DNA of 47,555 bases from Solimonas flava DSM 18980 (GTDB lineage: Bacteria; Pseudomonadota; Gammaproteobacteria; Nevskiales; Nevskiaceae). Both the position numbers and the translations under genes were made by a program. The stretch is taken from contig NZ_AUFV01000020.1 of assembly GCF_000426685.1 (NCBI RefSeq), forward strand, positions 1 to 47,555, read 5' to 3'. A model generated the notes under the pieces. The model had not been told where the DNA came from, searched no databases, and saw nothing but the letters and a program-made list of their open reading frames with translations. Below, piece by piece: positions 11,803-45,229 of the stretch (the first letter of the stretch is position 1; each line of letters starts with the position of its first letter).

Positions 11803-12207
11803 TCAGGCGATCGGCGCGCCGTCCGGCGGCGCACCGCCGTCGGCGTCCGGGCTCAGCAGATGCACGCGCCCGTCCGGCGCCAGCGCGCCGAGCACGAGGA
11901 ACTGGCTCTTGAAGCCGGCGATGCGCTTTTCGCCGAGATTGATCGCGCCGACCACGCGGCGGCCGATCAGCTGCGCGGCCGGGTAGTGCGTCACCTGCGC
12001 GCTGGTCTCGAGTACGCCGACCACCGGGCCGAAGTCGACGCGCAGCCGGTAGGCCGGCTTGCGTGCCTGCGGGAACGGCTCCGCCGCCAGCACCGTGCCG
12101 ACGCGCAGGTCGACGGCGAGAAAGCCGTCGACGCCGCAGACGTCCTTGCGCGGCAGCTTGTCCGGGGCGTACGGCAGGGCCGCGCCGTCGATCACATGCT
12201 GGACCAT
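11803..12207 (-). CDS. csaA: CsaA-type tRNA-binding domain protein
   Basis: Small single-domain protein of 134 residues with the OB-fold of the tRNA-binding domain found in CsaA, Arc1p and the MetRS C terminus. FLAVDLRVGTVLAAEPFPQA matches the start of Bacillus CsaA, and the conserved GVLETSAQVTHY and GEKRIAGFKSQFLVLGA segments follow. CsaA is described as an export-related chaperone that binds the tRNA elbow; the exact role in this bacterium is unknown. The start at ATG 12207 has GAGGA about 10 bases upstream and gives roughly 20 residues more than the B. subtilis protein. The gene lies just downstream of ilvE on the same strand and meets the DUF1302 gene tail to tail. Confidence 0.87.
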   Translation of the reverse strand: MVQHVIDGAALPYAPDKLPRKDVCGVDGFLAVDLRVGTVLAAEPFPQARKPAYRLRVDFGPVVGVLETSAQVTHYPAAQLIGRRVVGAINLGEKRIAGFKSQFLVLGALAPDGRVHLLSPDADGGAPPDGAPIA

Positions 12208-12265: not shown

Positions 12266-13357
12266 TCATGGGGTCTGCGGCGTCGGCACGGCGACGCGCC
12301 ATTCGCGCAGCGCGTGCGTCGAGCCTTCCTGGACCTGCTTGAGGGCGTCGTAGACGCGCGCCGGCAGGCCGGTGTCGGTGAAGCGGATCGCGCGTTCGCC
12401 GTCGCCGATCTCGCTGACGCTGACCAGGCGCGCGGCGGTGCCGACGCCGAACGCGGCGCCGAGCTGGCCGGCCATCTGCGCGGCGGCGAGCTCGTCGAGG
12501 CTGATCTTCTGCTCCGAGACGCGCAGGCCTTCGGCGCGCAGCAGGCGCAGCACGCTGTCGCGCGTGATGCCGGCGAGAATGGTGCCGTCGAGCGGCGGCG
12601 TCAGCACTTCGTCGCCGATCTGCACGAAGACGTTCATCGTGCCGGCTTCGGCGAGTTCGCGTCGCGTGAGCGCGTCGAGCCAGATCACGTCGTCGTAGCC
12701 GTTCTCCTTGGCGCGCTGCAGGCCGGCGAGGCCGGCCGCGTAATTGCCGCCGGTCTTGGCCGCGCCGAGGCCGCCGGGGGCGGCGCGCGTCAGCTCATGT
12801 TCGGCCCACAGGCGCAGGCGCTTCGGTGCCGGGTCGGCGCTCGGCGTGACGGCGACCGCGAGGCGGTGGCGCGTCGCCGGCCGGAAGCCCAGCGCTTCCT
12901 CTTCCGCATACAGCGTCGGGCGCAGGTACAGCGCGCCGCGGCCGTGCGGCGGCACGTAGCGTGCGTGCACCTGCACCGCGAGCTGGCACAGCGTCATGAA
13001 CAGATCTTCCGGCGGTTCCGGCATCACCACGCGGCGCGCGCTCAGTTGCAGGCGGCGCGCATGGTCGCGCGGACGGAAGAGATGAATCTGGCCGCGCGGA
13101 TCGCGGTAGGCCTTGAGGCCTTCGAACACCGACAGGCCGTACTGCAGGCCGCCGCTGGCGACCGGCACCGGCAGCGCGTTGCGCACGCTGACGGTCGGCG
13201 CGTGCCAGTGGCCGTCCTCGCCATGCTGCGCATGCACGAGATAGGGGCCGAGCACGCGGCCGAAGCCGAGTGCTTCCGGTTCCGGCCAGTCGGCCGGCAG
13301 GGGTGCTTCGTAAAGCCCGGTCGGGGGCGTGTGCATCGTCATCGCTCCATCGTTCAT
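12266..13357 (-). CDS. ilvE: Branched-chain amino acid aminotransferase
   Basis: PLP-dependent fold-type IV aminotransferase that makes the last step of Val, Ile and Leu synthesis, with glutamate as donor. At 363 residues it is the longer BCAT type seen in Bacillus and eukaryotes. The catalytic Lys is K201 in GLGAAKTGGNYA. GLQYGLSVFEGLKAY, ALYLRPTLYAEEEALG and LDGTILAGITRDSVL are conserved family stretches. Three ATGs compete (codons 1, 6 and 8); the last, at 13336, has the best-placed GGAG, so the true start may be seven residues in. It begins 9 bases after the acetolactate synthase stop, so both genes share the attenuated transcript from about 15245. Confidence 0.93.
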   Translation of the reverse strand: MNDGAMTMHTPPTGLYEAPLPADWPEPEALGFGRVLGPYLVHAQHGEDGHWHAPTVSVRNALPVPVASGGLQYGLSVFEGLKAYRDPRGQIHLFRPRDHARRLQLSARRVVMPEPPEDLFMTLCQLAVQVHARYVPPHGRGALYLRPTLYAEEEALGFRPATRHRLAVAVTPSADPAPKRLRLWAEHELTRAAPGGLGAAKTGGNYAAGLAGLQRAKENGYDDVIWLDALTRRELAEAGTMNVFVQIGDEVLTPPLDGTILAGITRDSVLRLLRAEGLRVSEQKISLDELAAAQMAGQLGAAFGVGTAARLVSVSEIGDGERAIRFTDTGLPARVYDALKQVQEGSTHALREWRVAVPTPQTP

Positions 13358-13366
13358 TGCAAAAGC

Positions 13367-15043
13367 TTAACCAAGCGCCTCGATATTGGCGCTGCCCGGC
13401 GTCACCATCGGCAGCACCATTTCCTCGGCCGCGATCGGCGCGCGGATCAGCATCGGGCCCGGCTGCGCGAAGGCCTCGCGCAAGGCCTGTGCCGGATCGC
13501 GCACGAAGCCGAGATCCAGCGCCGGCACGCCGAAACCCTCGGCGATCGCGCAGCAGGACGGCGGCTGCCGGTACAGCGAGCCGCTGTAGCGCGCGTCGTA
13601 GAACAGATTCTGCTGCTGGCGCACGAGGCCCAGCGCGCTGTTGTCCATCACCACGATCTTCACGTTGGCCTGGGTCTCGGCCAGCGTCGCCAGCTCCTGC
13701 ACGGTCATCAGCAGCGAGCCGTCGCCGGAGAAACAGACCGCGCCGGCGCGCGGAAGTGCCAGCGCCGCGCCGATCGCCGACGGCAGGCCGAAACCCATCG
13801 TGCCGAGGCCGCCGGACGTCAGCCAGCGATCGCCGCGCGCGAACGGATAGGCCTGCGCGACCCACATCTGGTGCTGGCCGACGTCGGTGGTGATCGCCGT
13901 CTCCGGGTCGATCAGCGCCGCGATCGTGGCGATCAGTCCATACGGGCGGCGCGGATCGTCGCGCCCGGGCTGGGCCAGCGGGAACTCGCGGCGCAGCGTG
14001 CCGACGCGCGCCAGCCAGTCGGCGCGCAGCTGCGGGCGCACGGCGTCGAGCAGCGCGCGCAGCGCGGCGCCGGCATCGGCCTCGATCGCCAGTTCCGGGC
14101 GGCGCAGCTTGCCCAGTTCGCGGCGATCGGCGTCGATATGAATGACCTGCGCGTTCGGGGCGAAGCGGTCGAGACGGCCGGTGGCGCGGTCGTCGAAGCG
14201 CGCGCCGATCGCGATCAGCAGATCGCATTCGTCGAGCACGAGATTGGTGTAGCGCGCGCCGTGCATGCCGAGCATGCCGAGCGCCAGCGGATGGTCCGGC
14301 GGCAGCGTGCCGAGCGCCATCAGCGTGGTCGTCGTCGGCAGGCCGGCGCGTTCGGCGAAGGCCTGCGCGAGCCCTTGCGCGCGCGCCTGCGTGACGCCGC
14401 CGCCGAGGTAGAGGACGGGGCGCTGCGCGCGCTCGATCAGCCGCGCCGCCTGGGCGATCGCGGCGGCGTCCGGGGCCGGTGCGCGCTGCGGCGGCGCGGC
14501 GTCCGGAACGCGCTCGATGCGCAGGCGCTCGGTCTGCACATCCTTGGGCACGTCGAGCAGCACCGGGCCGGGGCGGCCGCTCTCGGCGATGCGGAACGCT
14601 TCCGGCAGCAGATCGAGCAGGTCTTCCGCCGAGCGCGCCTGGAACTGCGCCTTGGTGATCGATTCGACGATGTGGCCGGTGCGCACTTCCTGGAACGCAT
14701 CGGTGCCGATCAGCGCGCGTGGCACCTGGCCGGCGATGCAGACCAGCGGCACCGAGTCGGCCTTGGCGTCGGCGATCGCCGTCACCGTATTGGTCACGCC
14801 GGGGCCGGAGGTCGCCAGGCAGACGCCGGCGCGGCCGGTGACGCGGGCGATACCCTGCGCCATGAACGCGGCGCCCTGCTCGTGGCGCGCGAGGATATGC
14901 GTCAGCCGCGAATCGGCGAGCGCGCGGTACAGCGGCAGCAGCGCGCCGCCGGGAATGCCGGCGACGAGCGCCGCGCTCGGGCCGACCGCGTCGATGCGTC
15001 GCTCGAGGAAGCGGGTGATCAGTTCTGCGCCATTGATGTCCAT
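13367..15043 (-). CDS. ilvG: Acetolactate synthase, large (catalytic) subunit
   Basis: ThDP- and FAD-dependent enzyme that joins two pyruvates to acetolactate, or pyruvate and 2-oxobutyrate to acetohydroxybutyrate, the first committed step of branched-chain amino acid synthesis. 558 residues, close to IlvG/IlvB. The ThDP-activating Glu is E55 in ARHEQGAAFMAQG. The middle domain has VPRALIGTDAFQE and RTGHIVESITKAQF. The ThDP/Mg motif is CFSGDGSLLMTVQELATL with the distal MDNSALG. A GGAA lies about 7 bases before ATG 15043. It is followed directly by ilvE with no room for the small regulatory subunit (ilvM/ilvN/ilvH), which must lie elsewhere or be absent. Expression is probably controlled by the leader peptide and attenuator at 15101-15224. 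The gene could equally be named ilvB. Confidence 0.94.
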   Translation of the reverse strand: MDINGAELITRFLERRIDAVGPSAALVAGIPGGALLPLYRALADSRLTHILARHEQGAAFMAQGIARVTGRAGVCLATSGPGVTNTVTAIADAKADSVPLVCIAGQVPRALIGTDAFQEVRTGHIVESITKAQFQARSAEDLLDLLPEAFRIAESGRPGPVLLDVPKDVQTERLRIERVPDAAPPQRAPAPDAAAIAQAARLIERAQRPVLYLGGGVTQARAQGLAQAFAERAGLPTTTTLMALGTLPPDHPLALGMLGMHGARYTNLVLDECDLLIAIGARFDDRATGRLDRFAPNAQVIHIDADRRELGKLRRPELAIEADAGAALRALLDAVRPQLRADWLARVGTLRREFPLAQPGRDDPRRPYGLIATIAALIDPETAITTDVGQHQMWVAQAYPFARGDRWLTSGGLGTMGFGLPSAIGAALALPRAGAVCFSGDGSLLMTVQELATLAETQANVKIVVMDNSALGLVRQQQNLFYDARYSGSLYRQPPSCCAIAEGFGVPALDLGFVRDPAQALREAFAQPGPMLIRAPIAAEEMVLPMVTPGSANIEALG

Positions 15044-15100
15044 AGTCGGTTCCGGGAAAGGTGGAACCCCTGGGGCGATGGACCGGCGGATGAGACCCTC

Positions 15101-15144
15101 AAAACAGAAAACCCCCGCCGGTCGTATGCGCCGGCGGGGGTTTT
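15101..15144 (-). terminator. Attenuator terminator of the ilv operon
   Basis: On the minus strand CCCCCGCCGG, a 9-base loop and CCGGCGGGGG form a perfect GC stem, flanked by AAAA and TTTT that extend it to 14 bp, and then CTGTTTT. It sits between the leader peptide (15162-15224) and the acetolactate synthase start (15043). Its upstream arm can instead pair with GCGCCGTAGGGG at the leader stop codon (15159-15170, six plus four pairs around a small internal loop), which is an antiterminator. This is the layout of classical amino-acid attenuation. Confidence 0.88.
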
Positions 15145-15161
15145 GTTTCGTGCAGCAGCCC

Positions 15162-15224
15162 CTACGGCGCGTCGTTAACGACGACCGCTACGAGTACGAG
15201 GGCAATCTGCTTGAACGGGTTCAT
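15162..15224 (-). CDS. ilvL: ilv operon leader peptide
   Basis: Twenty-codon reading frame MNPFKQIALVLVAVVVNDAP ending in TAG. Eight of 20 codons specify Ile, Leu or Val, with Val-Val-Val near the end, which is what an IlvL-type leader needs to sense branched-chain aminoacyl-tRNA. The tandem Val codons lie in a 14-base palindrome (CGTCGTTAACGACG, 15170-15183). The stop codon lies inside the antiterminator segment, so a ribosome finishing the peptide would block it and let the terminator form, while a ribosome stalled on Val would leave it free. No clear Shine-Dalgarno precedes the ATG. The peptide is found here by position and composition, not by homology. Confidence 0.85.
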   Translation of the reverse strand: MNPFKQIALVLVAVVVNDAP

Positions 15225-15252
15225 TAGATGTGACTGAGCTTGAAGCGCGCGC

Positions 15253-15282
15253 AGTCTAGCCGCGTGCCTGAAGCTTGCGCAA
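15253..15282 (-). promoter_or_regulatory. Probable promoter of the ilv leader
   Basis: On the minus strand TTGCGC (15277-15282), an 18-base spacer and TAGACT (15253-15258) give a start near 15246, about 22 bases before the leader ATG. The -35 box lies in the palindrome GCTTGCGCAAGC (15273-15284). The box resembles the TTGCGC promoter at 9024. Confidence 0.5.
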
Positions 15283-15293
15283 GCGGCGGACGC

Positions 15294-15683
15294 TCATGCC
15301 GTGCCTTTCTGGATGAACTCGATCTTGTAGCCGTCCGGGTCCTCGACGAAGGCGATGACGGTCTTGCCATGCTTCATCGGGCCGGCTTCGCGCGTGACCT
15401 TGCCGCCGCGCTGCCGGACCCGTTCGCAGGCCTGGGCGGCGTCGTCGACTTCGAGCGCGATGTGGCCGAAGGCGCTGCCGAGTTCGTAGCGATCGACGCC
15501 CCAGTTGTAGGTCAGCTCGATGACGGCGCCGTCGGCTTCGTCCTGGTAGCCGACGAAGGCGAGCGTGAACTGGCCGTCCGGATAGTCTGCGCGGCGCAGC
15601 ACCTTCATGCCGAGCACGTCGCGGTAGAACTGGATCGAGCGATCGAGATCGCCGACCCGGAGCATGGTGTGAAGGATGCGCAC
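15294..15683 (-). CDS. gloA: Lactoylglutathione lyase (glyoxalase I)
   Basis: Converts the hemithioacetal of methylglyoxal and glutathione to S-lactoylglutathione, detoxifying methylglyoxal. The start is a GTG at 15681-15683 with AGGAG upstream; this gives [20 protein letters not shown], which aligns residue for residue with E. coli GloA. The metal ligands H5, E56, H74 and E122 all fall at the E. coli positions, so this is probably a Ni/Co-activated enzyme. It is 129 residues against 135 in E. coli. [20 protein letters not shown] and [15 protein letters not shown] are conserved. An ATG start seven codons in would lose the first ligand. The ilv promoter begins just after its stop codon. Confidence 0.96.
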
Positions 15684-15698
15684 GGGGGACTCCTGCAG

Positions 15699-15734
15699 AA
15701 AAAGCGGCGGCGCGCAAGGTGCCAGCGCGCCGCT
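15699..15734 (-). terminator. Probable terminator of the DUF2884 gene
   Basis: On the minus strand AGCGGCG and CGCCGCT can pair around a GC-rich 18-base loop, followed by a short T run. It stands between the DUF2884 stop (15760) and the gloA ribosome site. The loop can form a competing stem (GCGGCGCGC with GCGCGCCGC). Confidence 0.5.

Positions 15735-45139: not shown

Positions 45140-45229
<90 letters not shown>

Follow-up and report, generated by a model that had tools for sequence, protein, structure and literature searches.

The textbook picture of an attenuator has four segments. The described system closest to the locus studied here is the ivbL leader of Escherichia coli, annotated ahead of ilvB-ilvN, which is reported to respond to valine and leucine (PMC11187965). 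Deletion of RF3 is also reported to lower ivbL-controlled expression of E. coli in rich medium, which its authors ascribe to occupancy over the stop codon (PMC5373646). Branched-chain attenuators have been predicted in Shewanella, a non-enteric gammaproteobacterium, where the sources name ilvG, ilvI and leuA (PMC2659441, PMC3223726). In Corynebacterium, Mycobacterium and Streptomyces, a branched-chain leader ORF and a terminator lie before ilvB; there the ORF overlaps the terminator, and codon changes in the upstream ORF of S. coelicolor are described as having no effect (PMC1262725). Another amino acid, operon and RNA are involved in Sinorhizobium meliloti trpL, whose attenuator ORF has no Shine-Dalgarno region: the rnTrpL RNA is reported to begin at the ATG, which makes it a precedent for a leaderless attenuator ORF (PMC7298713).

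We analysed a stretch of 47,555 nucleotides of Solimonas flava DSM 18980 (contig NZ_AUFV01000020.1), called the window below, in which an attenuator element occupies the minus strand between the end of gloA (15294) and the start of an acetolactate synthase gene (15043). The leader ORF (15162 to 15224; ATG at 15224-15222, TAG at 15164-15162) encodes in 20 codons the peptide MNPFKQIALVLVAVVVNDAP*, with eight Ile/Leu/Val codons, one of them for Ile. Its control codons GTC GTC GTT (Val14-16, 15177 to 15185) belong to a Val-rich run beside strand 2 that recurs in relatives, and they overlap a perfect palindrome, GTCGTTAACGAC (15171 to 15182), that can form a mini-hairpin (1:2). Strand 2, the 5' arm of the antiterminator, is GCGCCGTAGGGG (15159 to 15170) and holds the leader stop codon. 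Strand 3, CCCCCGCCGGCGC (15128 to 15140), is common to the antiterminator and the terminator. The arms of the latter run from 15140 to 15131 and from 15121 to 15112, the second being strand 4, CCGGCGGGGG (15112 to 15121), followed by the U-tract TTTTCTGTTTT (15101 to 15111). A simple pattern scan of both strands from 14700 to 15700 returned no terminator and no promoter; the terminator was probably missed because its loop measures 9 nt and the scan permits 3-8. The original prediction had placed a 20-residue leader with eight Ile/Leu/Val codons, a palindrome, an antiterminator and a terminator in this order, the last two excluding each other through a shared arm, and each of these elements was recovered from the minus-strand letters where it had been placed.

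The same prediction had called the downstream genes an ilvG-ilvE operon, and in this it was wrong. The synthase (13367 to 15043, minus strand) is 55.7% identical to E. coli IlvB; its identity to E. coli IlvG is 43.9%, and that to the IlvI of the same genome 39.9%. It passes TIGR00118, its best NCBIfam model is NF006016 (PRK08155) at 810 bits, under that model's own cut-off of 870, and a midpoint-rooted FastTree tree of 58 sequences, shown without support values and with the window present twice, places it in the IlvB clade. The next gene is ilvE, for the branched-chain aminotransferase (12266 to 13357, minus strand), 9 nt away. Since the synthase is of the IlvB type and ilvE follows it, the operon is ilvB-ilvE. 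An attenuator of the ilvL (ilvGMEDA) type, as the earlier label implied, would share with this locus a branched-chain leader peptide, one Ile codon in the leader and an ilvE gene in the same operon; the two differ in the leader peptide and in the synthase clade, no ilvM lies in the 9 nt gap between synthase and ilvE, and the leader end and antiterminator fit IvbL (...VVVVVGNAP*) and not IlvL (...VVVIIIPPCGAALGRGKA). We thus consider this identity highly improbable and discarded it on the synthase comparison, the tree and the leader end. No small-subunit gene adjoins ilvB: ilvE takes the place that ilvN has in E. coli, a difference that concerns the E. coli operon and not its attenuator. The only TIGR00119 match of the 4.46 Mb genome sits on a different contig, followed by ilvC and divergent from ilvI. 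The same model gave one match in 54 of the 58 genomes of the window's family and none in 4, a count from which short IlvM-like proteins may escape. At the locus L154 (about 1350 and 1501), ilvI and ilvH are divergent, with a -10-like TAAGAT ending 9 nt before the ilvH ATG, and ilvH there may, by eye, also be nearly leaderless. A gene resembling CsaA or a tRNA-binding protein (11803-12207, minus strand) follows ilvE in the window by about 60 nt on the same strand and is possibly part of the operon. Among relatives, ilvE was found within the 1.5 kb downstream region at 19 of 26 loci, the exceptions being L092, L099, L101, L104, L105, L107 and L108.

Judged from its sequence, the leader RNA is a homologue of the enteric ivbL-ilvBN attenuator and not of the ilvGMEDA leader. 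By blastn, the window RNA aligns with E. coli ivbL over 45 nt at 84.4% identity; the same kind of search gave no hit for another family member, L159. Both have a Val-rich leader ending xAP-UAG (enteric relatives end ...VVVVRVVVVVGNAP-UAG or near), a GC terminator, ilvB directly downstream, and the antiterminator GCGCCGUAGGG(G)/CCC..CGGCGC with the stop codon inside strand 2. They differ in leader length, 20 codons here against 32 in E. coli, and in the region ahead of the leader, where AAGG is visible by eye in E. coli and no Shine-Dalgarno-like motif stands here. The core is therefore the known ivbL type in another lineage, with the gene label corrected from ilvG to ilvB. That lineage is indeed not enteric, as the original prediction had stressed, but attenuation outside the enterics is not new in kind, given the leader peptides and attenuators predicted in Shewanella (PMC2659441, PMC3223726). 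The Shewanella cases are set apart from ours by gene names and not by their RNA: ilvG, ilvI and leuA are named there and not ilvB, which has 0 occurrences in the text of PMC2659441 that we searched. The actinobacterial ilvB leaders, with their ORF overlapping the terminator, contrast with the conserved antiterminator found here. Among the matches listed in a literature search, no title or beginning of an abstract named an ilvB or ivbL leader in a non-enteric gammaproteobacterium; an earlier prediction is possible (e.g. Vitreschak et al. 2004).

We then looked at the conservation of the element. At E<=1e-150 the synthase was found in 9 of 11 genomes of the genus and in 26 of 58 genomes of the family, genus counted in. 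All 26 loci carry an open V/L/I-rich leader frame and a GC terminator, with GGG at or just past the stop codon. A first covariance model, trained on 25 of these 26 leaders (alignment A1; L084, a near copy of L083, was omitted), matched 32 times at E<1e-9 among the 58 genomes of the family, the window included, and none at this threshold in 26 other genomes of the same order. Seven of the 32 lay outside the training set, one of the seven (G010) being a near copy of the window. All 32 have an open leader frame of 19-22 codons, a terminator, and a strand 2 containing the stop codon, so that the small frame and the alternative pairing are kept in relatives as had been anticipated. Twenty-nine of the leaders precede ilvB-type genes, three of them found through the model only (two cut at contig ends, and one, judged by eye, in a 79% complete genome). 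Two others, L137 (G040) and L139 (G006), have ilvE, and not ilvB, as their next gene; here the attenuator may outlast the loss of the gene that it first controlled. At L134 (G043) the leader precedes a remnant of about 114 codons that has, by eye, the look of a piece of an acetolactate synthase.

These data bear on a simpler explanation, namely that the terminator is the ordinary 3' terminator of gloA, the small ORF being incidental and the ilvB promoter lying further downstream. The end of gloA is on the same strand, about 70 nt ahead of the leader ATG, and four weaker covariance-model hits that we inspected (L141-L144) were indeed ordinary gene-end terminators and were set aside. On the other hand, leader and terminator are followed as a unit by ilvB, ilvE or an ilvB-like remnant in 32 genomes, although what lies upstream varies visibly, by eye, from one genus to another; and strand 2 covaries with strand 3 (see below), for which a plain terminator has no need. 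In view of this linkage and of the 2:3 covariation we rejected the gloA terminator, an explanation that we find very hard to credit.

The covariation of homologous leaders, one of the checks proposed with the original prediction, was measured on a second alignment that includes the antiterminator (A2: 39 sequences, 38 of them distinct, made up of 31 of the 32 family copies and 8 outgroups picked for carrying the motif; L084 and L009, a near copy, were omitted). Five further loci with branched-chain-rich frames (L003, L025, L031, L149 and L153) lacked, by eye, the stop/antiterminator arrangement and were rejected. Over the 38 distinct sequences, 94.2% of the cells of the antiterminator (2:3) were paired and 5 of its 10 pairs had changed on both sides (0.8 in shuffled alignments); for the terminator (3:4), 97.1% of the cells were paired and 6 of 10 pairs had changed on both sides (shuffled, 2.0). 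Because both pairings carry compensatory changes, ribosome-mediated attenuation is well supported, and the classical reading of the locus held. The 1:2 hairpin was paired in 83.7% of cells and its covariation was not significant (319 of 500 shuffles reached the value); in the predicted fold of the window it is compatible with the antiterminator, both being present. The palindrome over the Val run is therefore not a third exclusive structure, and a part for it as exclusive protector is not supported. In one genus (L104, L105 and L107), strands 2, 3 and 4 change in concert, and the last residue of the leader goes from Pro to Ser with the pairing preserved; on this pattern, the RNA and not the peptide seems to be selected in these three.

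The other proposed check was folding with and without a ribosome. In folds of the RNA ending at the terminator loop, 6 or more antiterminator pairs formed in 26 of 32 leaders with a stalled ribosome, in 0 of 32 with the ribosome at the stop codon, and in 21 of 32 without a ribosome. In the six leaders outside the 26 (L089-L092, L106 and L108) the automatically chosen stall codon was too near strand 2. E. coli ivbL behaved alike in these folds. Once the RNA was complete and folded at equilibrium with no ribosome on it, the terminator was the dominant structure in 31 of 32, so the antiterminator must act kinetically. Since 21 of 32 leaders form the antiterminator without a ribosome, starvation may shift output only modestly if initiation is weak.

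Taken together, these results make it very probable that an ivbL-type ribosome-mediated transcription attenuator controls the ilvB-ilvE operon; sequence, conservation, covariation and homology to E. coli ivbL argue for the attenuator, and from them we infer its operation in Solimonas flava. With charged Val-tRNA (and Leu- or Ile-tRNA) in ample supply, the ribosome would reach the UAG stop inside strand 2 and cover this strand, leaving strand 3 to pair with strand 4, and transcription would terminate at 15111-15101. Under valine shortage, it is at the Val/Leu codons that the ribosome would stall; the free strand 2 would then pair with strand 3, and transcription would proceed into ilvB-ilvE. 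Without any ribosome the window leader is predicted to form the antiterminator, and for this reason the ribosome at the stop codon would be the OFF signal. Such a signal agrees with what is reported for E. coli ivbL upon RF3 deletion (PMC5373646). After read-through, a fifth segment could pair with the freed strand 4 and might stabilise the read-through fold (see below).

This scheme depends on where transcription and translation of the leader begin. A lenient scan picked a candidate -10, TAGACT (15253 to 15258, minus strand), with a predicted 5'UTR of about 22 nt, and a candidate -35 region of weak consensus, TTGCGCA (15276 to 15282), of which the scan took TGCGCA (15281-15276), 17 nt from the -10. 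Hexamers resembling TAGACT, TACACT or TAGTCT occur near the same place in many of the 26 relatives. A transcription start downstream of 15160, against which the original prediction had been staked, was not seen: the best promoter-like site in the lenient scan puts the predicted start upstream of the ATG. A Shine-Dalgarno-like 4-mer precedes the leader ORF in none of the 32 leaders, and frequent translation of the leader is thus an assumption; ahead of the downstream gene such a 4-mer is found in 20 of 32, the ilvB of the window being outside those 20. In 8 of the 32, promoter-like sites place the predicted 5' end 0-3 nt from the leader ATG, and the leader ORF may be nearly leaderless in these relatives, the window excepted. 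S. meliloti trpL resembles our leaders in lacking a Shine-Dalgarno region (PMC7298713) and differs in that a leaderless start is here a prediction for 8 of 32, outside the window.

The fifth segment, strand 5, is CCGCCGGTC (15081 to 15089, minus strand), complementary to the end of the terminator loop together with arm 4 (15123-15115). Its core lies about 10-27 nt past the terminator stem, or 37 in L106, which lacks the pairing. When each strand 4 was scored with its own strand 5, the total was 725; shuffled tails gave 465 (sd 14), and swaps between species 631 (sd 14). The comparison with swaps ignores relatedness, and in it 0 of 20000 reached the observed value. On an alignment of 31 of the 32 sequences (A3; L084 omitted), 86.6% of the 4:5 cells were paired against at most 52.0% when one strand was slid, and 13 cells were double-changed against 3.8 in shuffles, the covariation score being reached by 0 of 500. 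Strand 5 covaries with letters of the terminator loop that do not belong to strand 3 (GATA/TATC, ACAT/ATGT and AAAG/CTTT). By an additive estimate, the energy of the read-through fold relative to the terminator fold has a median of -2.1 kcal/mol when 4:5 is counted and of +13.4 when it is left out; the two folds come within 5 kcal/mol of each other in 28 of 32 leaders with this pairing, and in 1 of 32 without.

Strand 5 also repeats the CGCCGG core of strand 3, and it could be a functionless remnant of a duplicated strand 3 or a chance match of GC-rich sequence. We give this explanation somewhat less than an even chance. In its favour, shuffled tails yield about 9 of the 14 kcal/mol observed for 4:5, the probability of 4:5 does not exceed 0.20 in any of the 32 when the whole RNA is folded at equilibrium, and 87 of 500 shuffles reached the 3 doubly changed pairs counted on A3. 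Sequence by sequence, 18 of 32 were matched by at most 5 of 100 shuffles and 14 by more than 5; L106, L134 (85 of 100 shuffles as good) and L139 are without the pairing. A test with one sequence per genus, drawn from 30 of the 32 (L089 and L090 are without the searched core), was marginal (median p 0.032, mean 0.046). Against it stand the covarying loop letters outside strand 3, the double-changed cells and the paired fraction on A3, and the species swaps, relatedness being ignored in the last. Outside the family, the shuffles of 100 that did as well numbered 14 in E. coli, 64 in L004, 21 in L007, 3 in L009, 1 in L152, 63 in L145, 82 in L150 and 39 in L151; the pairing is significant as a set here, in contrast to E. 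coli. Strand 5 looks lineage-specific from these comparisons, and the role we infer for it takes the form of a five-segment attenuator in which the 4:5 pairing, restricted to this lineage and to the read-through RNA, would contribute about 14 kcal/mol (additive estimate) and make the read-through fold about as stable as the terminator fold. It would lock the mRNA open or tune the fold at the ilvB ribosome-binding site, behind a leader that is free of a Shine-Dalgarno sequence, leaderless in some genera, and ON by default without translation. We regard this extended model as tentative and, taken whole, unlikely.

The ilvB ribosome-binding region is itself enclosed by a hairpin, GGTTCC/GGAACC (15048 to 15068, minus strand). 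It is favoured only when the 32 sequences are taken together (-275 against -225, sd 10, for shuffles); in the window alone it was not significant, 72 of 200 shuffles being equally stable. This weaker hairpin, too, looks lineage-specific.

A second, broader model, built on the 39 sequences of A2 and including the antiterminator, was run on larger sets of genomes. It found the leader in 6 of 370 genomes of the class (2 in the window's family and 1 each in four other families), all 6 from the training set, and in 11 of 397 genomes of the phylum (the window's own and ten in one enteric-like family). At all 16 loci, six of them from training, the gene directly after the leader is of the ilvB type. 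Because the large genome searches, those with the first model included, ran under stricter filters and each scored a small number of candidates, they may have missed weak copies. A class-level protein search at E<=1e-180 gave 6 of 276, which is no gauge of ilvB frequency because this cut-off is strict. In one family of the window's class, ilvB shares 72-94% identity with E. coli IlvB across the compared region. A Myxococcales MAG (L010, about 2790-2929) has a leader ending ...VVVVVVDAP* ahead of an ilvB-type gene that groups beside the window's family in the tree, possibly by transfer or through a binning error. In Rfam, no leader family matched the window at the gathering score, its sole match there being a tRNA at 45140; below threshold, sodF_sRNA (22.3 of 46 bits) and His_leader (20.9 of 49) appeared at the leader. 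Two enteric ivbL loci and two other loci gave none at the gathering level either, and Ile/Val attenuator motifs are described as characterised yet outside Rfam at the time of writing of PMC3766115.

Altogether, these data place an ivbL-type attenuator outside the enteric bacteria, with a core that can be recognised in one further family of gammaproteobacteria and, sporadically, in four others. The E. coli cousin is a textbook switch, in which the ribosome senses valine shortage and switches on the valine-making genes, and the extra pairing is not clear there. The set of leaders provides natural data for telling constraint on the RNA from constraint on the peptide, as in the genus where Pro has become Ser and the pairing is kept. 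Finally, the Shine-Dalgarno-free leader and the covarying fifth segment, with the functions that we suggest for them, would be testable departures from the four-segment textbook picture.
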